Source: Phycisphaeraceae bacterium | GTDB taxonomy: Bacteria; Planctomycetota; Phycisphaerae; Phycisphaerales; Phycisphaeraceae | Length of the DNA: 49,252 nt | Assembly: GCA_029260655.1 (NCBI GenBank) | Contig: JAJDCU010000009.1 | Span: 1 to 49,252, forward strand | Direction: 5' to 3' | Part shown: piece after piece, positions 18,893-48,475 of the stretch | How the letters are laid out: the number at the start of each line of letters is the position of its first letter | Position numbering within the stretch: the first letter of the stretch is position 1 | Made by a program: the position numbers and the translations under genes | Notes under the pieces: generated by a model | Told to the model about the DNA's origin: nothing | Databases searched by the model: none | Seen by the model: only the letters and a program-made list of their open reading frames with translations

Positions 18893-19573
18893 TTACCACC
18901 GCGCCCCCGACTCAAGCGCGGCTTCGAGCCGGCGCAGATACGCTTGCCGCGATATCTCCACCACCGCGAACTGCTCCAGGTGCGGGTTGGAAAACTGCAC
19001 GTCCAGCAGGCTGAATCCGCGCTGTCGAAGGTGTTCGACTAAAGCGACCAGACACACCTTGGAAGCATCCGCCGAGCGGTGGAACATCGACTCACCGAAA
19101 AACGCCCCGCCCAGCGCCACCCCGTAGAGCCCGCCGACGAGCCTGTCTTGTTTCGGGTCAACTTCCGCTGAGTCTGAGCACTCGGGCGCAGGCGAACTGT
19201 CTCCCGGCAGCCAGGCTTCGACGCTGTGTGCTAGGCCGCCCCGGTGCAGCTCGCCATAGACATCGATGATCGGTTGACTGATCCAGGTATCTGGGTCCCG
19301 TTCTCTCGGCTCGGCGCATGCGTGGATCACCCGATCGAAAGCCCGGTCCATGGTCACCGCGTAGCGCCCGCTATTCACCCGCCGCCTAAGTGATTGGGAC
19401 ACGCGCAAGCCCTGCTCATCGATCGGCAACACCGCACGCGGGTCCGGGCTGTACCACCTAAGCGGGCCGTCACGCCCGTCCGCCATCGGGAACGCCCCCG
19501 CGCAATACGCCTGCACCACCAACTGCGGCGTCAGTTCTGGTATTTCTGGTGGCTCCCGTGGGTCCATGCGCAA
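18893..19573 (-). CDS. aat: Leucyl/phenylalanyl-tRNA--protein transferase
   Basis: The 226-residue enzyme transfers Leu or Phe from tRNA to proteins with N-terminal Arg or Lys, marking them for ClpS/ClpAP. Family signatures present: YCAGAFPMAD, RWYSPDPRAVLP, TWI...I..YGELHRGGLAHSVEAW, LVGGLYGVALGGAFFGESMFH, AS K L-type segment DASKVCLVALVEHL, and LLDVQFSNPHLEQFAVVEISRQAYL near the end. A roughly 18-residue insertion (GDSSPAPECSDSAEVDPK) sits between EAW and GGLYG and is unusual, probably a surface loop. Two in-frame starts (19573 and 19567) are nearly equivalent. It is divergent from the DUF456 gene. Confidence 0.95.
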   Translation of the reverse strand: MRMDPREPPEIPELTPQLVVQAYCAGAFPMADGRDGPLRWYSPDPRAVLPIDEQGLRVSQSLRRRVNSGRYAVTMDRAFDRVIHACAEPRERDPDTWISQPIIDVYGELHRGGLAHSVEAWLPGDSSPAPECSDSAEVDPKQDRLVGGLYGVALGGAFFGESMFHRSADASKVCLVALVEHLRQRGFSLLDVQFSNPHLEQFAVVEISRQAYLRRLEAALESGARW

Positions 19574-19721
19574 ACTCTATCAGGATCACTCGGGCGGTTT
19601 CAGAATAGTCGACACTCACCGCAAAAGGGCCGCTTGTGGATTCTCCGGGTGGAATGACAAAGCACGGTTGGGCGCCATATCCAGGACCGGACTGCGACTA
19701 TCCGTTTGGGGGCTGGGAGGT

Positions 19722-20276
19722 ATGATCGGTCCCATGCTGGATACGACGATCCTGATTTCGGTGTCGGTGTTGCTGCTGCTGGTCAACGCTGTGGGCGTGT
19801 TTCTGGTTGCGATGCAGCTTCCGGGGACGTGGCTGATGTTGGCGGCGACGGTGGGTATGGCGTGGTGGCGCTGGGACGGGTGGTCGGGGGGTCTGATCAC
19901 GGGCTGGACGCTTTTAGCGCTGGTAGTGCTGGCGATAGTAGGGGAGTTGGTGGAGTTCCTGGGCCCGGCGATGGGTGCGGCGCGTGAGAAGTCTTCCAGG
20001 CGTGCGGCGGGGCTTTCGGTGGTCGGGGGCGTGGTCGGGGCGCTGATCGGAACGGTGGTGCTGGCGTTTTTGCCGATCCTGGGGACGCTGATCGGTGCGG
20101 TGGTCGGCAGCGGTGTGTTCTCAATCGGCGGGGACCTGTGGGCTGGGCGTGGGTGGGAGCCCGCCCTGCGCGGGGGCAAAGGGGCCGCGATTGGGCGGTT
20201 CTGGGGTGCCTTGGGCAAGCTCGTGATCGCCGTGGTGATGTGGGCGGTGGTGGCCGCGGCACTGGTCTGGCCCTGA
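19722..20276 (+). CDS. DUF456 family membrane protein
   Basis: The 184-residue protein is very hydrophobic, with about five membrane segments separated by Gly-rich turns (GGVVGALIGTVVLAFLPILG, GAVVGSGVF). The conserved block GELVEFLGPAMGAAREKSSRRA matches the DUF456 family, whose function is unknown. The start is uncertain: ATG 19722 sits one base after GGGAGG, which is too close, and ATG 19734 is 13 bases away; a frame also extends upstream to 19566 over the aat 5' end and is unlikely to be used. It may be glycine-zipper-like in packing. No operon partner is evident. Confidence 0.8.
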   Translation: MIGPMLDTTILISVSVLLLLVNAVGVFLVAMQLPGTWLMLAATVGMAWWRWDGWSGGLITGWTLLALVVLAIVGELVEFLGPAMGAAREKSSRRAAGLSVVGGVVGALIGTVVLAFLPILGTLIGAVVGSGVFSIGGDLWAGRGWEPALRGGKGAAIGRFWGALGKLVIAVVMWAVVAAALVWP

Positions 20277-20407: not shown

Positions 20408-22018
20408 ATGCTGAAGTTCCTGGTCTTTGACACCGGCCGACCGGCCGAAGATTGGCCTCTGCGAAACGCCTACCTGATCGGCGCCGATGGCAGCGCGGTG
20501 CGTGCGGACATCTCCGTCGAGCGCGGCGCGGTGATCTGTGAGAAACGGGAGTCGGGCCCGGCGGCGCTGTGCCTGTTGCATGGGGCCGGGGAGCTTGGCG
20601 AGCTATCGATCCAGACCTGCCTGCTCCCTGAGCGCATCGAGCCGTACATCCTGACGGTCGAGCTCGCCCGTCACCGGCTGATGACGCTGTATGCCAAGCT
20701 CGAAGAGTGGTTGATGTTCGATCTGGAAGCGGACCACTCGGTCACCCGCAAGGGCAACCGGGCGCGGGAACTGTTCATCCGGTCCTTGTGCTATCAGCAG
20801 GACGAGCCGGTGAAGGCCTATGAGACGGCCCAGGAATCGCTGTCGATAGCGCTGGACGCGACCGAGGAGTTGGCGCTGGCCCATTCGTCGTTGCTGCTGA
20901 ACCGCCGGATCGAGACCGGGTCCCTGCCCAAGGCGCCGATCGGCTGCGGTGTCTGCGTCGACCATATCAACGACAGGCTCCGAGCCGGGCTCGCCAGCAG
21001 CTTCGACTTCATCCAGTTGCCGATGCCCTGGCGCTCGCTTGCGCCCCACGAAGGCGAGTGCCAGTGGGAGCAGACCGACAACTGGGTCGAGTGGGTTTCG
21101 CAGTCGCGCACGCCCGCCATCGCCGGGCCGTTGATCAGCTTCGAGCCCAGCAACCTCCCGGACTGGCTGTACATCTGGGAGCACGACTACGACACCGCCC
21201 GAGACATGGTCTACGAGCACGTCGAGCGCGTGGTGGACCGGTACAAGGACCGTATCTTCGTCTGGAACGTCGTGTCGGGCCTGCATGTCAACAGCCACTT
21301 CACGTTCAATTTCGAGCAGTTGATGGACCTGACGCGGATGACGACGATGCTGGTCAAGAAGCTTCAGCCCAACGGGAAGGTGTTGATCGAGCTGCGTCAG
21401 CCTTTCGGGGAGTATTACGCGGTCAACCAGCGTTCGATCCCGCCTTTGATGTATGCGGACCTGATCGTGCAGTCTGGGATCCACTTCGACGCCTTTGGGA
21501 TACGCCTGCTGATGGGCCAGGCGATCGCCGGGCAGTACACCCGTGACCTGATGCAGGTCAGCCAGCTGCTGGATCAGTTCACGGTTTTTAACAAGCCGGT
21601 GCATCTGACGGTTGCGGCGCCCAGCGAGCCGGTGACGCAGATGATGATCTCGGCATCCGAGACCGGCGAGCCGATCGACCCCAACAGTGGCTACTGGCGC
21701 AGGCCCTGGTCACAGCAGGTGCAAAGCCACTGGCTGGAGGCCGTGTACCAGATCGCCGCGAGCAAGCCTTTTGTGGAAGCGATCGCCTGGCAGGAGTTGG
21801 CGGATCATCCTGATATCGAGCTGCCCTTAGGCGGTCTGCTCAGCGAGGAATTTCAGCCCAAGGGGGCGCTGCGCCGCGTGGTCGGGTTCAGGCAGAACCT
21901 TATGGCCGGGGCCGGGGTGCAGGTGCCCGCGCCCGCCGAGGAGTCCCAGGTCCCGGGCCTGGCGCCCGAGGGTGATGACGAGCAGGGGGATAACAACCAA
22001 GCGGGTGAGCACATCTAA
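20408..22018 (+). CDS. GH10-fold protein lacking both catalytic glutamates
   Basis: The 536-residue protein has no signal peptide. Residues 1-170 are an N-terminal beta-rich then helical region. Residues 175-495 follow the endo-xylanase (GH10) barrel in order: FIQLPMPWRSLAPHEGECQW (family: N.mKW..iep..G.f.f), AGPLISFEPSNLPDWL, VERVVDRYKDRIFVWNVVSGLH, a DAFGIRLLMG strand (family: DgiG.Q.H), KPVHLTVAAPS, and the end region PLGGLLSEEFQPKGAL. In active GH10 enzymes the two catalytic Glu lie in WDVVNE and in ITELD; here the matching residues are WNVVSG (286-291) and LTVAA (400-404). So it looks like a barrel without hydrolase chemistry. The C-terminal 40 residues are acidic and disordered. A gene for an HhH protein follows after 21 bp. 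Confidence 0.72.
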   Translation: MLKFLVFDTGRPAEDWPLRNAYLIGADGSAVRADISVERGAVICEKRESGPAALCLLHGAGELGELSIQTCLLPERIEPYILTVELARHRLMTLYAKLEEWLMFDLEADHSVTRKGNRARELFIRSLCYQQDEPVKAYETAQESLSIALDATEELALAHSSLLLNRRIETGSLPKAPIGCGVCVDHINDRLRAGLASSFDFIQLPMPWRSLAPHEGECQWEQTDNWVEWVSQSRTPAIAGPLISFEPSNLPDWLYIWEHDYDTARDMVYEHVERVVDRYKDRIFVWNVVSGLHVNSHFTFNFEQLMDLTRMTTMLVKKLQPNGKVLIELRQPFGEYYAVNQRSIPPLMYADLIVQSGIHFDAFGIRLLMGQAIAGQYTRDLMQVSQLLDQFTVFNKPVHLTVAAPSEPVTQMMISASETGEPIDPNSGYWRRPWSQQVQSHWLEAVYQIAASKPFVEAIAWQELADHPDIELPLGGLLSEEFQPKGALRRVVGFRQNLMAGAGVQVPAPAEESQVPGLAPEGDDEQGDNNQAGEHI

Positions 22019-22039: not shown

Positions 22040-22399
22040 ATGGCCGCCACGACACGGGGGTATGTCATCCTGCTGATCGCGTTCCTGCTGCTGGTGATAC
22101 ATCAGGCGGCACTGAGCCCATATCCCCGTGGTGGGGCGGAATCCCGGCCGCTTGGCCAGCGGATCAAAGTTAATTCGGCCGACGCCCCGACGCTGCAACT
22201 GTTACCCGGGATCGGCCCGAGCATCGCGGAGAACATCCATCAGCAACGATTGCGGATCGGCGCGTTCCACGGCCCGAGCGACCTTCAGCGCGTCCGGTTC
22301 ATCGGCCCTAAGCTGATCGAGCGCATCGACCCGTGGGTGGTGTATGGCCCCGTGACAGGTGAGACGGATCCGGGGGGGCGGGGGCAATTGCTAAAATAA
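22040..22399 (+). CDS. ComEA-like helix-hairpin-helix protein with N-terminal membrane anchor
   Basis: This is a 119-residue protein with a transmembrane or signal segment at about 7-26 and a short linker. Two HhH motifs follow: KVNSADAPTLQLLPGIGPSIAENI (in two parts around 46-69) and LQRVRFIGPKLIERI (near 83-97). This is the ComEA/HhH-1 layout used for non-specific double-stranded DNA binding in natural uptake. With type IV pilus genes in the same window a part in DNA uptake is possible, but HhH proteins of this size are also found without competence. It follows the GH10-like gene by 21 bp and may share its transcript. Confidence 0.82.
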   Translation: MAATTRGYVILLIAFLLLVIHQAALSPYPRGGAESRPLGQRIKVNSADAPTLQLLPGIGPSIAENIHQQRLRIGAFHGPSDLQRVRFIGPKLIERIDPWVVYGPVTGETDPGGRGQLLK

Positions 22400-22468: not shown

Positions 22469-22987
22469 TCAGGTCATCGGCCGAAGGCCCTTGGGGCTGA
22501 TGCCGGCGATCCGAGGTACCAACCGGCGGGTCGGCCTGTCCAGAAGTTTGCCCGACCCGGGGGCCAGCTTCGGCTTGGGCAGGATGTTCGCCCGCGCCCG
22601 GGCTGTGGCGCCGTGGTGGACCCGCAGGCTCTTGCCGGTCAGTTCACCCACCGTCAGGCTGTCTGGGCCCAGCTCGATCGCGCCGTAGACCACGGCGTGT
22701 CCTTCGAATCGGCCGGTGTTGGTGAACTTGCCGCAGACCAGCCGGCCGATCATCTCGCTGGGGTTGGATAGCTGGACGTGCCCCATGGTGGAGACGTCGC
22801 CTTCCATCCGCTGACGCAGGGTCAGGTCCTTGAACTCCAGCGGCCGGGTGCAGGTAGGACACCGCACGGACATCGCCCGTGTGGAGACCTCAAACGCCCG
22901 CCCGCAGTGGGGGCACAAGACCCGGCGTAGCTGGCGCGGCTCGGGCCCGCGCGGGTGGATCGTAGCCAGGGCCGGTCGTAGTGGCAT
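22469..22987 (-). CDS. Zinc-ribbon bactofilin-like (polymer-forming) protein
   Basis: The 172-residue protein has an N-terminal zinc ribbon CPHC...CPTC (about 25-46) followed by a beta-helical bactofilin-like domain: EGDVSTMGHVQLSNPSEMIG, GKFTNTGRFEGHAVVYGAIELG, VGELTGKSLRVHHGA. Bactofilins polymerise without nucleotide into filaments or scaffolds in the cytoplasm. The zinc-ribbon fusion is less usual and may bind nucleic acid or a partner. It lies 9 bp downstream of a second bactofilin gene, so the two are almost certainly co-expressed, and it is followed by a good terminator. Confidence 0.75.
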   Translation of the reverse strand: MPLRPALATIHPRGPEPRQLRRVLCPHCGRAFEVSTRAMSVRCPTCTRPLEFKDLTLRQRMEGDVSTMGHVQLSNPSEMIGRLVCGKFTNTGRFEGHAVVYGAIELGPDSLTVGELTGKSLRVHHGATARARANILPKPKLAPGSGKLLDRPTRRLVPRIAGISPKGLRPMT

Positions 22988-22996
22988 GGCTTGGGT

Positions 22997-23545
22997 TTAA
23001 CCAATCCCGTTGCCGTTGCGGGCGGCGATGACCTTGGGGCGGCGTCGCTGGAGGATCTGGTTCACCGAGCCGGGCATCGTCGTGATCGACGAGGCATCAT
23101 CATGTTCGTCCTGATCCTGCGGTATCGCGGACGGCGACTTGGTGATGCTCTGGACCGGCTGGTCCTCTTCCTGCCCGTCGGTCTGGCGGAGGGCTTCCTT
23201 GGCGGCCTGGATGGCCTTGGGGCCGACGCAGACGTCGCCCTGGAAGGTCGCGCCCTCGACCACGTTCAGCCGGGCGGTGTAGAGCTGGCCCACCAACTGG
23301 GCACCCGGGAGCAGTTCGACCGCGTCCTCGGCGACAACGTCCGCCTCGGCATGGCCCGCCAGGCGCAGCGCCCCGGCGATAATCATCCCCGACACCTTCG
23401 ACGACTCGGACAGCTCCAGCGTCCCGCTGACTCGCAGCGTTCCGGTGAACTCGCCCATAATCACCGCGTCGTTGTCCAGCGCCAGTTCGCCGCTGATCCG
23501 GCAGTCCGGGCCCAGGACCGTCTTACTTGTTCGCGCCTCGCTCAT
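22997..23545 (-). CDS. Bactofilin (polymer-forming cytoskeletal protein)
   Basis: A frame continues upstream to 24028, but the ATG at 23545 with AAGGAG seven bases before it is clearly the start, giving 182 residues. The core (about 10-110) has the repeating hydrophobic/Gly pattern of a bactofilin right-handed beta-helix: VLGPDCRISGELALDNDAVIMGEFTG, LELSESSKVSGMIIAGALRLAGHAEADVVAEDAVELL, GQLYTARLNVVEGATFQGDV (read in separate segments). The C-terminal 60 residues are polar and basic at the end (QRRRPKV). It heads a two-gene bactofilin operon divergent from the glycosylase gene. Confidence 0.85.
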   Translation of the reverse strand: MSEARTSKTVLGPDCRISGELALDNDAVIMGEFTGTLRVSGTLELSESSKVSGMIIAGALRLAGHAEADVVAEDAVELLPGAQLVGQLYTARLNVVEGATFQGDVCVGPKAIQAAKEALRQTDGQEEDQPVQSITKSPSAIPQDQDEHDDASSITTMPGSVNQILQRRRPKVIAARNGNGIG

Positions 23546-23744
23546 CTGAAAACTCCTTGCTGAGAATGTCGCCGAACGACTTCGGCGGAGCATCCACTTC
23601 ATCGGGTCATGCCGGAGATTTATCCAAAACAAAAATCGGCAACCCTCACCGCCAAGTGGGGTGGGTATTCTCGGACTCCACGGCGGGTCTGCACGAACCG
23701 ACGCCCATTGGTGCGCCGTGGGATCAGGCGGTATCGTGGCGGCC

Positions 23745-24533
23745 ATGGACCCGATGAGACGGATGCGAATACTCAGACAGCACATCGCCGCTGACCGGCT
23801 AATGGGTGTCTCGGCTGTGCCGCGCGGCGCCGCCCGACTCCAATCGCCGGTCGTCGTGCAGGCAGGATCAGCCTCGGCCGCTGGCTCCGACACACCCCCG
23901 CCCCGGGCCGGGGCCGCGCGGGGTGATGACGCAGCCATGACCCGGCAGCAGAAAGCACAGGCCCTGCTCCAGATGGACCAGCAGGAGGTCCAGGGATGCG
24001 AGAGTTGTGTACTCTGCCAGCAGCGCACGCAGACCGTCTTCGGGGAGGGCGACCCCGATGCTCAGATCATGTTCATCGGTGAGGGGCCCGGTCAGCACGA
24101 GGACGAGCAGGGCAGGCCCTTCGTCGGCCGATCGGGCGAGTTGCTTGATAAACAGATCAAGGCGATGGGGTTTGAGCGCGAGCAGGTCTACATCGCCAAT
24201 GTGGTCAAGTGCAGGCCCCCGGACAACCGCACACCGTTGGCGGGCGAAGTCGACGCATGCTGGGTCTACCTGCGTCGGCAGATCCAGATTATCCGCCCGC
24301 AAGTCATCATCACCCTCGGCGGCCCCGCGGCGAAGCTGGTTCTGGGCACCAAAGAGGGCATCACACGCATCCGCGGCACCTGGCATGCATACGAGGGCGT
24401 TGACCCGCCCGTCCCGGTCATGCCCACGTTCCACCCGGCCTACCTGTTGCGCAAGTACACCAAAGAGAACCGGGCGAATGTCTGGTCCGATCTCAAGGCG
24501 GCGCTGACGAAGCTGCAAACCCACACACGCTAG
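23745..24533 (+). CDS. Family 4 uracil-DNA glycosylase (iron-sulfur type)
   Basis: The product (262 residues) removes uracil from DNA. Residues 1-85 are a variable, Pro/Ala-rich N-terminal tail. The enzyme core has CESCVLC, then the uracil-binding motif GEGPGQHEDEQGRPFVGRSG, VKCRPPDNRTP, a second Cys 15 residues on (ACWVYL), TLGGPAAKLVLG, and the C-terminal HPAYLLR. The four Cys spaced this way are the [4Fe-4S] ligands of family 4 enzymes. I chose ATG 23745; a frame reaches 23661 but adds non-conserved residues. Divergent from the bactofilin operon with a 199-bp gap. Confidence 0.93.
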   Translation: MDPMRRMRILRQHIAADRLMGVSAVPRGAARLQSPVVVQAGSASAAGSDTPPPRAGAARGDDAAMTRQQKAQALLQMDQQEVQGCESCVLCQQRTQTVFGEGDPDAQIMFIGEGPGQHEDEQGRPFVGRSGELLDKQIKAMGFEREQVYIANVVKCRPPDNRTPLAGEVDACWVYLRRQIQIIRPQVIITLGGPAAKLVLGTKEGITRIRGTWHAYEGVDPPVPVMPTFHPAYLLRKYTKENRANVWSDLKAALTKLQTHTR

Positions 24534-36963: not shown

Positions 36964-38841
36964 TCAGATAGCGTCTTGACTACTTGACGATCTACCCCAC
37001 CTGCGCCGCCACTTCAACCCGCAAAAACCCGCCGCACCAAGCAAGGCCAGCGTTCCCGGTTCGGGCACAAGAGCAAGCACTTGCGGGGGCGGCGAGCCGG
37101 CGTTCCAGTTACCGACGATGATGTTGATGTCTTCGATGCCCACAAACCCGTCGCCGGACGGGTCGGCCAGGGGGTCGCCCGGGGGTACGGCCTGGTTCCA
37201 GTTTTCCAGCACGATGCTCAGGTCCTCGATGCCTACGAAGCCATCGCCGTTAAGGTCGCCGGTGAGTGGGGCGAGGGTGATCGTCAGTGTGGCGTTTGGG
37301 TCGAAAAAGTCATTTGAAAATACCCTCGTTGAGTTCAGGTCATAGCTGAATGGCGAGCCATCGGTGAGGATGCCCTCCAGCGTTACGTCGCGGTCGGTGA
37401 TCAATGTCGATACCCCGAGCGTCAGCCCCGGCGTCAGGTCAACGCCGTCCAGGGTGAACGATGGGCCCGTGAGGTTCATCACGCCGCCGGCGAAGGCGTC
37501 GATCTGGTTGTCCACGTCCCCCCCGCTGATGTTGACCGTGCTGCCGGAGTGAGCTTCTAAGAACGGGCCCATAGTCCCACGGGTGATATTGACCGTACTG
37601 CCGGGGTGGGCGATGAGGAAGCGGTTCACGGTCCCGCCGCTGAGGTTGACGGTGCCGTTGGCGCTGAGTTCTCCGGCTACGAACCCGCCGTTGATGTTGA
37701 CCGTACTGTCGGGGGCGGAAATCAATAGAGAACCCACCGTTCCGCCGTTGATATTCAACGTTGATAGGGGGGCGACAGTGAAGTTGTCTCCCAGCACCCC
37801 ACCGTCGCTGAGATTGAGTGTCTGACCGGTCCGCAGCCCCCGCGGCTCGGGACCGGCAGGGATATTGACCACGCCCGGTGCCGACGGCAGAGCCGCCTTG
37901 GTCAGCGTCAGCGTCCCATCGGCAATAATGTCTTGTCGTACGGTGCTAAGTAGCAGTACCGTACCGTCAGCGAGCGTGGCGGTCAGGCGTGAGCCGACAG
38001 GTATGTTGATCCCGACCGAATCACCCAAATTATTCAGCCCTGCGACAGGGACGCCCTCCAGGAAGAACTCGCCGCCGCTTAGGTTGACCGTGCTGCCGGA
38101 GAATGAAGTGAAATCACGGTCCACGATCCCGCCGGTGATGTTAATCGTGCTGCCGGAGAAGGCGTCCAAGCTTTCTCTTACTCTCCCGCCGCTGATGTTG
38201 ATCGTGCTGCCTGATTCGGCTTGGAAGTCTCTAGCTACGTCCCCCCCGCTGATGTTGACCGTGCTGCCGGAGAGGGCAGCGGAACTGTCGGTGAAGATTG
38301 AGCCTTCAGACAGGGTTCCGCCTGTGATGTTGACCGTGCTTCCGACGCCGGCTGTGAATCCGCCTCTCACGACCCCGCCGCTGAGGTTGACCGTGCCGTT
38401 GGAAGTGAGGCGTTCGCCCACGCTCCCGCCGCTGATGTTGACAGTGCTTCCGGAGCTGGCGTCAAAGTCTGAGCTCATGATCCCGCCGCTGATGTTGATC
38501 GTGCTGCCGGAGAAAGCGTCGAAGATACCGTTTACCCCTCCACCGCTGAGGTTGACCGTGGTGCCGGCATACGCGTCAAAGCCGACATCCACAAATCCGT
38601 CGGTGATGTTGACCTCGATGTTTGTGCTCGAACCATCCGCGGCGCCGGCAATGAAATCAGCGCCGATGACACCACCAACGAACAGGTTCAGCTGTGTATC
38701 CGAGCCGATCGAGCCGGGGTCGGGATCCGAGGGGATATTGATGATGGTGCCGAAGACTTGGGCGGTAGCGGGGGCGGTCAGTGCCCAAGCGAACAGGCAG
38801 ACCGCCGACGCCAATAAAAGACTCAACCTTGGAAACGGCAT
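36964..38841 (-). CDS. Secreted beta-helix repeat protein with dockerin-like pair and PEP-CTERM anchor
   Basis: The ATG at 38841 (AGGGG nine bases upstream) gives 625 residues with a signal peptide (1-28, cut after APATAQ). About fifteen degenerate repeats of some 20-23 residues follow, each with a core like SGSTVNISGG, in two blocks separated by a non-repeat segment (VPVAGLNNLGDSVGINIP to TKAALPSAPGVV). Such repeats form right-handed beta-helices. A paired dockerin-like motif (GDLNGDGFVGIEDLSIVLE, SGDGFVGIEDINIIVG) and a PEP-CTERM tail VPEPGTLALLGAAGF...WRRRW end the protein. It is probably exported and anchored or processed by an exosortase, none of which is in the window. The frame is open to 39174 but nothing supports an earlier start. 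Confidence 0.85.
   Translation of the reverse strand: MPFPRLSLLLASAVCLFAWALTAPATAQVFGTIINIPSDPDPGSIGSDTQLNLFVGGVIGADFIAGAADGSSTNIEVNITDGFVDVGFDAYAGTTVNLSGGGVNGIFDAFSGSTINISGGIMSSDFDASSGSTVNISGGSVGERLTSNGTVNLSGGVVRGGFTAGVGSTVNITGGTLSEGSIFTDSSAALSGSTVNISGGDVARDFQAESGSTINISGGRVRESLDAFSGSTINITGGIVDRDFTSFSGSTVNLSGGEFFLEGVPVAGLNNLGDSVGINIPVGSRLTATLADGTVLLLSTVRQDIIADGTLTLTKAALPSAPGVVNIPAGPEPRGLRTGQTLNLSDGGVLGDNFTVAPLSTLNINGGTVGSLLISAPDSTVNINGGFVAGELSANGTVNLSGGTVNRFLIAHPGSTVNITRGTMGPFLEAHSGSTVNISGGDVDNQIDAFAGGVMNLTGPSFTLDGVDLTPGLTLGVSTLITDRDVTLEGILTDGSPFSYDLNSTRVFSNDFFDPNATLTITLAPLTGDLNGDGFVGIEDLSIVLENWNQAVPPGDPLADPSGDGFVGIEDINIIVGNWNAGSPPPQVLALVPEPGTLALLGAAGFCGLKWRRRWGRSSSSQDAI
37515..38625 (-). repeat. 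Degenerate repeats of about 60-69 bp inside the beta-helix gene
   Basis: On the plus strand a unit like TGATGTTGACCGTGCTGCCG recurs about fifteen times, for example near 37527, 38246, 38428 and 38490, with spacing in multiples of three. Two blocks (about 37515-37770 and 38065-38625) flank unique sequence. They encode the SGSTVNISGG protein repeats and may recombine with each other. Confidence 0.8.
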
Positions 38842-39216
38842 TTGGATTACCCCTGGCTTAATGGTGCAGCCTGGACAGGACTGCCGGTAGCGAAACAGCG
38901 AGACCCGCTCTATCCCCCTCATCGGGACCCCGGAGGGGGGGAGGGGGGGCCGAGTATCTATGTAAGTTGTTCGGCCGTTGACAAGGATAGAAATTAGAAA
39001 AGACGACGGGTTACCTGAGTCGGCATGTATCTTCTGAAATGATTCCACCCCCGACAGCATTGGCAGGGGTGATCGTTGGAGGGATTCACGCATCGCCGAC
39101 GCCGGGTACTCAGCGAAACGATGCTCCGGATATCCGGGTCTTCGTCGTTCTTGGACGGGTCCAGGCACAGGCATCGCGGTTCGGAATTAATATCTGCCAA
39201 GAAGACGGTGCTGAAC
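38842..39216 (-). other. Upstream region of the beta-helix gene, with G-rich tract
   Basis: No credible gene lies here. A possible minus-strand promoter is TTGTCA (38984-38979), 18-bp spacer, TAGATA (38960-38955). Just inside the leader two runs of seven G on the plus strand, separated by one A (38935-38949), could fold as a G-quadruplex. The remaining 230 bp up to the peptidase stop codon show nothing I recognise. Confidence 0.35.
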
Positions 39217-43154: not shown

Positions 43155-43324
43155 CTTGCGCTATTGAGGCGTGTTGAGTTGACCGGGAGAAATTTTTATC
43201 CACCATCTACAGATTTCACTTGCGGGACTTAATCTCCTCGGTTAGTTTGCTATCAAGTTTCGGGTATCCAGGGGCCTTTAGTTCTTTCAGGGGCCTTAAA
43301 CAACTTAAGATCGGGAAATTCACC

Positions 43325-46300
43325 ATGCAGGCACTGCCAAGCGTTTGTGGGTCGCCGTTACGGGGTTACGTTGCGCGCCTTTTTGCTCAGGATCAAGCGC
43401 GGGACAAGTACTCGGCGGACGTTCCGCGTCAACAGTTTGAAACAGACTCACGCCCGGGATTCGAGCCGCTGGAGCCTCGCCTGTTGCTGAGCGCTTCGCC
43501 GTTCGATCTAACATCAACGCCTCTGTCATTTGATGTAAGTGATATCCACGCATCAGCCTCCTATGCCAATCGCCAGGACTCGAAACTGGACGGCCGCCTT
43601 CAACAGGCGGTCGATCGGCTCACCGCGATCTCTTTACCTGCAAACGCCAGTGCCAATCAGGCCTCGGCGGCAGGCCCGATCGTCGCCAGCGGTTTGTTTG
43701 ACACGGGCCTGGCCAAGACAAACGAGCAGGGGCAGGTCCAGATCGTCGCCCATCTATCCGAATGGGACCAGAACACAACCTCCAGATTGAGTGATCTTGG
43801 CCTGAAGGTGGAGGTGGCACACGATTCTACGAAGAGGGTCCAGGGCTGGGCTTCGCCTGAGGCGATCGACCGGTTGGCCACCCTCAGCACCGTTAAAAAA
43901 CTTACCCTGCCTAGCTATGCGACGTTCTCGGCCGGGAACACGCTGACGGCGGGTGACGCCATCTTGAATGCGGACGATGTCCGCGCTCAATTAGGCTACG
44001 ACGGGACTGGGGTCCGTATTGGGGTCATATCAAGTGGTGTCGATCACTGGCAAAACATATCCGCAACGGGCGATCTGCCCGCCGTGATCACGATCGATCC
44101 TATTCGCTCCGGATTCAATAGCGACCTCTCCTTTATTAACGACGACGAGGGCACGGCGATGCTCGAGATCGTCCACGACCTGGCCCCCGGCGCGGAACTG
44201 TACTTCTCCGGACCGAAACCAGCGGCGAATCCAAATGATCCCCTGCAGCATATTTTCACTGCTATGGATATGGTGGATTCTATTAATTGGTTGGTGGGCC
44301 AGGGTGTTGACATCATCGTTGACGATGTCGGCTTCTTCGATGAGCCATATTTTGAAGACGGTATAGTCGCACAGGCCGCCAACAACGCCTTGTCCCAAGG
44401 CGTTGTCTACGTAACTTCGTCCGGGAACCAAGCTCAGGATCATTACCAGGCACAATATAGTTTGGGGGGGAGTTCGGGCGCAGGGAATTGGCATCAATTC
44501 TCCCTCGGCGATGACTTTATGGGGATTGGTATCGATGCTGGTGCTACCATATCTGTCACCCTGCAGTGGAGTGATGCTTTTGGCGCTTCCGGCAACAACT
44601 ACGATATTTACTTGCTCGGCGCTAGCGGGATTGTTCAAAGTTCCACGCTTGGTCAGAGTGGCAACGACGATCCGTTCGAGGGATTCAGCTACACGAATAC
44701 TGGCTCAAGCGGCGTTTTCTTCCTCGGCATCAATCAACTTCCAGGTGCCGCGTCGCGCGAATTAGAACTGTTTGTGCGCAATGACTCTGGGCAAGAATAT
44801 TTTGATGCCAGTGACGGCATCTTTGGACATGCTGCAGCAGATGGTGTGATCGCGGTAGGGGCGATCGACGCGGCCGATCCGGGCAACGACGACATAGAGT
44901 GGTTCAGCTCACGCGGCTCATCGACGATCTACACAAACTTCGCAACCCAGACCTCGATCACTCGTGACAGCTTGGATGGGGCGTCGATCGACGGTGTGGA
45001 TACGCAAGTAGGGATTTCGGGGCTATGGAGCGGGGGCAATCCCTTCTTTGGCACCTCCGCAGCGGCGCCGCACGCTGCCGCGATCGCGGGGTTGATCCTG
45101 CAGGCCAACCCGCTGATGACGCCCGCCGCGGTGACTTCCCTGCTCACCTCCACGGCGGTGGACCTCCTTACACCCGGCTACGACGCCGATTCGGGGTTCG
45201 GACGCTTTGATGCGTTGCAAGCGATCCAAGGCATCGTCGCGAACGCCGACTTCGACGCCAACGGCCTTGTCGATAACGCGGACCTCGCCATATTTTCGGG
45301 GAACTTCGGCATTACCAGCGGCGCAACGCACAGCATGGGCGACGCCGACTATGACGGTGACGTGGACGGGTTGGACCTGGAAGCCTGGACATTGCAGGAT
45401 GCCAGCGGTGGAGCTCCGCTCGTCTTCGACGGGGACTTTGATAACAACGGCAACGTCGATATGGCAGACTTCCTGGTGCTCCAAGAGAACCTGGGCATGA
45501 GTTCGGCGACGAACGCCGACGGCGATGTGAACAACGACGGTCTGGTCGATGGGAAAGATCTGGTAGCCTACGAGTTTGCGCACGAATTGGCGAACCCGCA
45601 GAGCAGCACATTCATAACCGTCGAGGCTGTCGATATAGCCAAGTCCCGCCAGCCCGGCCAGATCCTCGTTTCCACGCTAACAGACGGAGTCGATAACGAT
45701 TACCGTCTGGGCCAACTGACTCTGCGCGAAGCGCTGATCATCGCGGGGCAAACCACAGCCGACGACACCATCGTCTATTTCGAGCAGGGCTCCATCAACC
45801 TATTGGGCACCGAACTGCTGATCGACAGCAATGTAACGATCGTGGGTGTAGGCGGGGCAGAGGCGACGATCCAAGCACCAACAGATAGCCGTGTAATCTC
45901 GGTCGCGGCCGGTGCTACCGTAACAATCAGCGCGACGTATATCACCGGCGGCAACTTGGAGACGGGGGATGGCGGCGGCATTCACAACGCCGGCACACTG
46001 ACGCTCGAGGACATCACTGTAACGGGTAATCTGGCGAAGCGAGGCGGGGGCATCTATAACGCCAACACCGGTATACTGATTGTTCAGCACGGCGGTGGCT
46101 TCTTCAGCAATAACGCCGGAATCGACTCAATCATCGTCGGCGAAGGCGGCGGGATCTACAACGCCGGCGTCCTCACGATTCCCAACAGATCTTTCGTCAC
46201 GGGCAACGCCACTTCCGGCAAAGGCGCGGGGATCTACAACCTGGGGACGGCGAACCTGACCGACGCGTGGGTCACGGACAACAACGCTTCCGACACCTCC

Positions 46301-48475
46301 TCTGCCGATGGCGGCGGGATCTATAACGACTTGGGCGCTATCCTGACGGCCACCGATGCCTCTATTAAGGGCAACACCGCCAATGGCGGCGACGGTGCCG
46401 GCATCCACAACCTGGGTACGGTGAATCTGACCAACACGGGCGTCTCCAATAATACCCTCACCGGTACCGGCTTTGGCGGCGGGATCAGCAACTCCGGCAC
46501 TCTGACGCTTACGAATGTCGACATGACGGGCAATCAAGCGCCGCACGGCGGCGGCGTCCATAACGCCGGCCTCATGACGATTACGGGTGGCACTACTATC
46601 ACAGGTAACATCGCCAACGGAAGTGCCGGGGGCATCCTGAATTTCGGTGGCGACCTGGATATCATCGACGCAGTCATATCCAACAACACCGCCACCGCAG
46701 GCTACGGCGGGGGCATCTATAACTTTAGCGGCACGCTGAGCGTTGACACGGGCCTGATCTCCACAAACAGCGCAGTCACTGGCCTCGGGGGAGGCATCTA
46801 TAACTTCAGCGGCGGTATCACCGTCACCGACAGCACCATCGACAGCAATATTGGTGCGGGCATCTACCTGAACACCGGCAGCCTCGACGTCTCCCGCTCC
46901 ACGATCTCCAAAAACACGGGCAGTGGTGTCTCAAGCGGCTACACGGCGGGTCTGCAGACCTACAGCAACGTAACGGTCTCTGGCAATGACGGTGACGGGA
47001 TCGCCTGGGCAGGCGGCAGCGGGCTCACACTCGTTAACAGCACGATCACCGATAACGACGGCCGGGGACTCAAGAGCGAATTCTCCGGCGCCGTTATCGC
47101 ACACAACTCGATCATCGCCGGCAACGCCGGGGCAGACATCTACCGCATCGTGAATGGGACTTACAACCTGATCGGCACGAGTGATCAGAGCGGCGGCAGC
47201 AGTGTCCTGACCGACACAATTACCAACCAGGTCCTCGGCGAATTGGGCGGATTGAGTGACTACGGCCTAGCCCCGCTGGGCGACTACGGCGGCCCGACAA
47301 AGACCCACGCGCTACTCGCTAATTCTACCGCCATCGATATGGGGGATAGCGGCTTGGCGGCCGCAGCCGATCAGCGTGGGCTCACACGTGTGCTTGGCAC
47401 ACAGGTCGATATCGGGGCCTACGAGTCTGGCAACACCACCCCGTTGGCTGTCACTACCGCGGCGGATGAACTCGACCCGACGGACGTGTTCTTAGGGGAC
47501 GGGCTGAGCCTGCGCGAGGCCCTGCAATTATCCCGCGACATCGTCGGGCCCGAGACAATCACGTTCGATCCGACTATTGGTTCGACGATCACCCTGTCAC
47601 GGGGTGAACTGTTGATCGAAGATGACGTGAACATACAGGGTTTGGGCGCCGACCAGTTGACCGTCAGCGGCGGCAGCCTGTCGCGGGTATTCCGCCTCAA
47701 CTCCGGGGTGACAGCGTCGATCAGCGGCCTGACCATCGCCGACGGGAACGTCAGCGGGGGCAACGGTGGCGGGATCTTCAATTCCGGCCAGTTGACCCTC
47801 GACGCGGTCGAGGTCCGTGACAATACCGCCAGCGCCGGCGGCGGGATCTACCAGTGGTCTAACCAGGGCGCGACGCTCGACGTGCTCAACAGCACCATCG
47901 CCGATAACGACGGCGGCGGCGGGATCTACCTCGCCTACGGCGGCCAGGGGGTGGTGAACATCACCAATTCGACGATCTCAACCAACACCGGGGCCGGCTT
48001 CTATTGGAGCGGCGGCGGCTCGGCAGGCATCATCTTTACCAACGCCACGGTGACCAACAACACCAGTTACGGCATTCACAGCGAGTTCGGGGCCGGCCCG
48101 ACGCTGCACAACAGCATCGTGGTGGGCAACGGCACAACCAGCGGGTATGACCTCTACCGGCTATTCAACTCCGCCAGTTCCTTCAACCTCATCGGCACGC
48201 AGTCTCAAGGCGGATTGACCGACCAAGTGAACAACAACCGGGTCGGTGTCACCGCCGCCCAGGTGGGGCTCTCAATGACCCTGGCCAACAACGGCGGCCC
48301 GACACGGACCCACGCACTGATCGCCGGCGGACTGGCCATCGACTCCGGCGACAACAGCTTCGCACCGCTCTTGGGCCTCTGGGACCAGCGGGGCGATCCG
48401 TTCAGCAGACTAGTTGATGGTGATGCTGACCTGATTGACGAGATCGACATCGGGGCCTATGAGTTCGTGGCTTAG
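43325..48475 (+). CDS. Giant exported protein: LEPRLLLSA motif, subtilase-like domain, dockerin-like motifs, two CSLREA/beta-helix modules
   Basis: From the ATG at 43325 the protein has 1716 residues. Residues 49-57 are LEPRLLLSA, a motif found near the N-terminus of exported planctomycete proteins. Residues 225-635 are an S8/S53-like peptidase domain: GVRIGVISSGVDHW, DDEGTAMLEIVHDLAPGA, and the serine loop FGTSAAAPHAAAIAGL (Ser 578). The canonical Asp and His are changed. Residues 640-755 contain four calcium-loop motifs such as DFDANGLVDNADL and DVNNDGLVDGKDL. CSLREA-type segments near 797 (LTLREALIIAG) and 1393 (LSLREALQL) each lead a beta-helix region rich in GGGIYNAGTLTL repeats, ending GAYE. 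It is probably a cell-surface or secreted protein. A TTG frame reaches 43220 without support. Confidence 0.82.
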   Translation: MQALPSVCGSPLRGYVARLFAQDQARDKYSADVPRQQFETDSRPGFEPLEPRLLLSASPFDLTSTPLSFDVSDIHASASYANRQDSKLDGRLQQAVDRLTAISLPANASANQASAAGPIVASGLFDTGLAKTNEQGQVQIVAHLSEWDQNTTSRLSDLGLKVEVAHDSTKRVQGWASPEAIDRLATLSTVKKLTLPSYATFSAGNTLTAGDAILNADDVRAQLGYDGTGVRIGVISSGVDHWQNISATGDLPAVITIDPIRSGFNSDLSFINDDEGTAMLEIVHDLAPGAELYFSGPKPAANPNDPLQHIFTAMDMVDSINWLVGQGVDIIVDDVGFFDEPYFEDGIVAQAANNALSQGVVYVTSSGNQAQDHYQAQYSLGGSSGAGNWHQFSLGDDFMGIGIDAGATISVTLQWSDAFGASGNNYDIYLLGASGIVQSSTLGQSGNDDPFEGFSYTNTGSSGVFFLGINQLPGAASRELELFVRNDSGQEYFDASDGIFGHAAADGVIAVGAIDAADPGNDDIEWFSSRGSSTIYTNFATQTSITRDSLDGASIDGVDTQVGISGLWSGGNPFFGTSAAAPHAAAIAGLILQANPLMTPAAVTSLLTSTAVDLLTPGYDADSGFGRFDALQAIQGIVANADFDANGLVDNADLAIFSGNFGITSGATHSMGDADYDGDVDGLDLEAWTLQDASGGAPLVFDGDFDNNGNVDMADFLVLQENLGMSSATNADGDVNNDGLVDGKDLVAYEFAHELANPQSSTFITVEAVDIAKSRQPGQILVSTLTDGVDNDYRLGQLTLREALIIAGQTTADDTIVYFEQGSINLLGTELLIDSNVTIVGVGGAEATIQAPTDSRVISVAAGATVTISATYITGGNLETGDGGGIHNAGTLTLEDITVTGNLAKRGGGIYNANTGILIVQHGGGFFSNNAGIDSIIVGEGGGIYNAGVLTIPNRSFVTGNATSGKGAGIYNLGTANLTDAWVTDNNASDTSSADGGGIYNDLGAILTATDASIKGNTANGGDGAGIHNLGTVNLTNTGVSNNTLTGTGFGGGISNSGTLTLTNVDMTGNQAPHGGGVHNAGLMTITGGTTITGNIANGSAGGILNFGGDLDIIDAVISNNTATAGYGGGIYNFSGTLSVDTGLISTNSAVTGLGGGIYNFSGGITVTDSTIDSNIGAGIYLNTGSLDVSRSTISKNTGSGVSSGYTAGLQTYSNVTVSGNDGDGIAWAGGSGLTLVNSTITDNDGRGLKSEFSGAVIAHNSIIAGNAGADIYRIVNGTYNLIGTSDQSGGSSVLTDTITNQVLGELGGLSDYGLAPLGDYGGPTKTHALLANSTAIDMGDSGLAAAADQRGLTRVLGTQVDIGAYESGNTTPLAVTTAADELDPTDVFLGDGLSLREALQLSRDIVGPETITFDPTIGSTITLSRGELLIEDDVNIQGLGADQLTVSGGSLSRVFRLNSGVTASISGLTIADGNVSGGNGGGIFNSGQLTLDAVEVRDNTASAGGGIYQWSNQGATLDVLNSTIADNDGGGGIYLAYGGQGVVNITNSTISTNTGAGFYWSGGGSAGIIFTNATVTNNTSYGIHSEFGAGPTLHNSIVVGNGTTSGYDLYRLFNSASSFNLIGTQSQGGLTDQVNNNRVGVTAAQVGLSMTLANNGGPTRTHALIAGGLAIDSGDNSFAPLLGLWDQRGDPFSRLVDGDADLIDEIDIGAYEFVA

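Follow-up and report, generated by a model that had tools for sequence, protein, structure and literature searches.

A GH10-derived pseudo-glycosidase family of Planctomycetota with a candidate scaffold role

The described pseudo-glycosidases include klotho, which belongs to GH1, and the xylanase inhibitor XIP-I, which is GH18-like. For GH10, a literature search with partial coverage, directed at GH10 pseudoenzymes and at the protein described here, found nothing. Planctomycetes have many lineage-specific proteins without an assigned function. In Planctopirus limnophila, 108 essential proteins of unknown function that are specific to the phylum were counted by transposon mutagenesis (PMC10632474). 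The gene analyzed in this work lies in a window of 49,252 nucleotides (the whole stretch of DNA that was analyzed) from a Phycisphaeraceae bacterium, and our findings suggest that it encodes a core pseudoenzyme of Planctomycetota whose most likely mechanism is that of a protein-interaction scaffold or adaptor, a reading to which we give a probability of about 0.5.

GH10 kinship, predicted fold and cellular location

The target gene starts with ATG and encodes a protein of 536 amino acids (Table 1). Sequence comparison places its kinship with GH10 beyond chance. The protein passes the gathering cut-off of the Pfam family PF00331 (33.3 bits, cut-off 22.1), and a phmmer search of the PDB matched it to the GH10 xylanases 1ta3 (E 8.6e-9) and 8b73 (E 3.6e-8), the latter over target residues 197-478. 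All 16 members of one family set (A1) matched PF00331 at E 0.01 or better, and two out of nine diverse members scored slightly below the cut-off; since most tested members pass it, counts of planctomycete GH10 xylanases may include this family. An NCBIfam search with the target and four further proteins gave no family above cut-off. No PF00331 match other than the target was found in the window's own genome, so the target is not the helper of a GH10 xylanase of the same cell.

Table 1. Position and supporting evidence of the target gene, its parts and the gene that follows it
Feature	Position in window	Strand	Evidence
GH10-derived pseudo-glycosidase gene	20408..22018	+	ORF; Pfam PF00331 E 3.8e-8; GH10 xylanases top in fold search
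N-terminal domain, residues 1-170: beta part 1-70, three long helices 82-170	20408..20917	+	AlphaFold2
TIM barrel, residues 178-502, eight strands	20939..21913	+	AlphaFold2; Foldseek 8b73 E 4e-15; VIA-align Z 29.1 to 7d89
Acid/base site, Asn-Glu of WDVVNE replaced by Ser290-Gly291	21275..21280	+	8b73 and family alignments
Nucleophile site, Thr401-Val402, Glu column a gap	21608..21613	+	Family alignments
C-terminal tail, variable, low confidence	21914..22015	+	pLDDT <50 from residue 504
ComEA-like helix-hairpin-helix gene	22040..22399	+	HHH_3 E 3.2e-14; 21 bp after target stop codon

In the AlphaFold2 model of the full target (mean pLDDT 79, pTM 0.80) the eight strands between residues 178 and 461 form a TIM barrel, the (beta/alpha)8 fold of clan GH-A. 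The top Foldseek matches of this model were GH10 xylanases, and VIA-align superposed it on the GH10 xylanase 7d89 with an rmsd of 3.2 over 304 residues; klotho was also among the VIA-align matches. A preliminary description of this DNA had proposed a GH10-like barrel with the family landmarks in order, to be given up if structure prediction showed no TIM barrel, and the proposal held in Pfam, phmmer, AlphaFold2 and the fold searches. The extra N-terminal domain that it had also proposed reached a pLDDT of 93.1 when modelled alone and is retained throughout the family. This domain had no confident match in the PDB by Foldseek (best E 0.22), VIA-align or profile search: the VIA-align scores (Z up to 9.6) fell mostly on the helical part and are common for helix bundles, and the single match of its profile to PDB sequences (E 1.1) is not meaningful.

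A Kyte-Doolittle scan of the target found neither a signal peptide nor a transmembrane segment. The highest 12-residue mean within the first 60 residues was 0.90, whereas the N-termini of six GH10 relatives with catalytic motifs reach 1.96-3.31. As the target lacks a hydrophobic stretch of this kind at its N-terminus, it is probably cytoplasmic, as already proposed from the lack of a signal peptide. The preliminary description considered this location unusual for a xylanase relative, but IXT6 is an intracellular xylanase, and its structure 1n82 was among the phmmer PDB matches of the target. Cytoplasmic GH10 proteins being known, location alone is not odd.

Catalytic residues, distribution and selection

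The acid/base motif of GH10, WDVVNE, reads WNVVSG in the target, and the alignment with 8b73 sets WDVINE against it. At the nucleophile, the motif ITELD corresponds to HLTVAAPS and the FTE motif of 8b73 is aligned with HLTVAAP; in the family alignment this column is a one-residue gap in the target (HLT-VAAPS), so the Glu is absent and not substituted. The family alignment comprised 115 distinct proteins, all but three of them in the family, and was extended by six and then by twenty (the twenty taken from 22 rows, two of which were already sampled genomes). None of the roughly 138 family sequences has the acid/base Glu that follows strand 4 (Gly291 in the target), and a single one has the nucleophile Glu that follows strand 7. 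This sequence, L099 of genome G075, keeps the Glu at the nucleophile position (YVSELKAP) and has no acid/base Glu, and it is the sole such member seen.

Both catalytic glutamates had been read as missing from WNVVSG and LTVAA, which the 8b73 and family alignments confirmed, and the survey of homologues proposed at the same time found the loss to be consistent. The counter-reading, that another alignment would place two Glu in the cleft, found no counterpart: the alignment contains no new conserved acidic pair (Glu/Asp) specific to the family, and at the acidic residues conserved in the cleft, E335 and D466, most relatives with catalytic motifs carry an acidic residue as well. Because both catalytic residues are lost, the family members would no longer hydrolyze glycosides. 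The GH10 sugar contacts N127, H81, W85, Q205, H207 and W274 (GH10 numbering) are replaced too, mostly by variable residues. Since nearly all classical sugar-contact residues are replaced, the old -1 subsite is a poor candidate for sugar binding.

The distribution was searched within the phylum Planctomycetota, where many of the genomes are drafts. Of the 244 near-complete genomes from the class Phycisphaerae, 241 were matched in a search with the protein, and these cover every sampled genus (185/185), usually with one copy per genome. When a profile built from the N-terminal domain alone was run on 393 genomes of the phylum, 199 gave a match, nearly always a single one, and about half of the sample had none; in nearly all the rows listed the domain stood in an ORF of barrel length, the exception (G272) being a 357-aa frame at a contig start. 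Outside the class, the carriers are many genomes of other families, mostly of 5-9 Mb, which we infer to belong to the class Planctomycetia. In a tree of 63 barrels, from which the catalytic columns were left out, 44 family members constitute one clade (99/94), and the relatives with catalytic motifs fall outside it, L171 on a long and uncertain branch. The clade adjoins L132-L134, cytoplasmic-looking relatives mostly with catalytic motifs; because the branches are long, its precise sister group is less certain than the clade itself. Between near relatives, dN/dS (NG86) is about 0.04-0.17, which indicates strong purifying selection on the gene. This is a family rather than a decayed copy, and the pseudoenzyme family suspected at the outset is supported by its presence across the class, its single clade and its low dN/dS.

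Gene neighbourhood and proposed role

Neighbours were counted in 77 related loci with flanks, one genome being sampled twice. In 32 of them, all from genomes of the class, the gene is followed on its own strand by a ComEA-like gene (PF12836); ten loci first labelled as other-class belong to the class according to the class-genome search. Upstream, on the opposite strand and always in the same orientation, purC was present in 34/77 loci, on both sides of the family's deepest split (PF01259 was confirmed for purC in two loci). Such shared positions support orthology and do not show shared function. Directly upstream of the target is a DUF456 gene (19566-20276, plus strand), a position that it also holds in five close relatives. 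Two adjacent bactofilin-domain (PF04519) genes on the minus strand (22469-22987, with a zinc-ribbon-like N-terminus, and 22997-24028) are also present in the vicinity of the gene in several close relatives. Farther along, the window encodes a 1155-aa protein with a secretin domain (PF00263; 24984-28451, minus strand), a 736-aa protein with a PEP-CTERM motif at its end (36964-39174, minus strand) and a 1751-aa protein with a subtilase domain and right-handed beta-helix repeats (43220-48475, plus strand).

The near-universal retention of one copy under strong selection suggests that the family probably has an important job other than sugar digestion. We hypothesize that the ancestor was a cytoplasmic protein with the N-terminal domain and a GH10 barrel, that both catalytic glutamates would have been lost once, before Phycisphaerae split from the other large carrier group of families, and that the protein would thereafter have been kept nearly always as a single copy. 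In the cytoplasm, a partner may be held jointly by the fixed N-terminal domain and the retained barrel; the emptied cleft would then be a groove for docking and no longer an active site, and the protein would work by binding, in a non-hydrolytic manner. Division and cell-wall machinery are unusual in planctomycetes. A bolder version, which we regard as rather doubtful, would be a cytoplasmic scaffold that is universal and single-copy in Phycisphaerae and related planctomycetes, derived from a dead GH10 barrel and acting in the cell biology peculiar to the phylum.

Another possible but rather unlikely explanation is a ligand-binding sensor, whose remodelled cleft would bind a sugar, a nucleotide or another small molecule and signal through the N-terminal domain. 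The conserved cleft residues of the family (W208, P332-x-G-E-Y336, P405-S406 and D466), several of them among the most invariant, follow strands of the barrel on its cleft side, and the divergent purC could hint at nucleotide metabolism. However, no conserved set of residues has taken the place of the lost GH10 sugar contacts, genes in divergent orientation can differ in function, the window's genome has purC on another contig and not beside the target, and no effector domain was recognized in the target by Pfam or NCBIfam. A comparison of conservation on the two barrel faces did not discriminate between sensor and scaffold, a control GH10 set giving no clear difference either. Of the sugar-sensing or scaffold pseudoenzyme first imagined, the pseudoenzyme stands, and sugar binding in the old subsite has lost its contacts.

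That the old barrel has acquired a new active site and is a working enzyme seems to us unlikely. E335 (or Asp), Y336, D466 and R379-D380 are invariant or near-invariant, and the purifying selection would also suit an enzyme, but nearly all residues still conserved in the family are common to relatives with catalytic motifs; relatives with the catalytic glutamates also carry E335, Y336 and D466, which therefore look inherited, and the conserved positions specific to the family (G240, W257, D260, E215, S385 and K453) make no obvious catalytic set. The conserved cleft residues leave room for ligand binding or unusual chemistry. A decaying gene or an annotation accident is highly improbable: the Pfam match spans only part of the target's barrel, but the frame is open in nearly all homologues listed, dN/dS is low and the gene is near-universal in the class.

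A protein-interaction scaffold is our preferred reading. Within the class, the family offers a well-delimited and near-universal candidate, with a known fold and one loss of catalysis placed on the tree, for which the relatives keeping catalytic motifs offer a comparison set.

Comparison with known systems

With GH10 xylanases the target shares the barrel fold, the motif order and the structural residues W208, W253, W286, Y336, D466 and K485; unlike them, it has no catalytic Glu pair, has lost the sugar contacts, shows no secretion signal and carries the extra N-terminal domain. L132-L134, of the same phylum and nearest in the tree, resemble the family in a pre-barrel region that aligns with the N-terminal domain, in the lack of a clear signal peptide and in the motif P/T-W-(G/S)-(E/D)-Y. 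In contrast to the family, all three keep the acid/base Asn-Glu, and L132 and L134 keep the nucleophile Glu (ITE), where L133 has Lys (ITK). The entry L117 is the same gene as L133 (genome G321); outside the pseudo-family, it keeps the acid/base Glu and has ITKMG at the nucleophile. Klotho (GH1) and XIP-I (GH18-like; the latter appears in PMC12329526) resemble the family, as we read it, in that a sugar-hydrolase barrel has been turned to binding, whereas they belong to different GH families, act extracellularly and have known partners.
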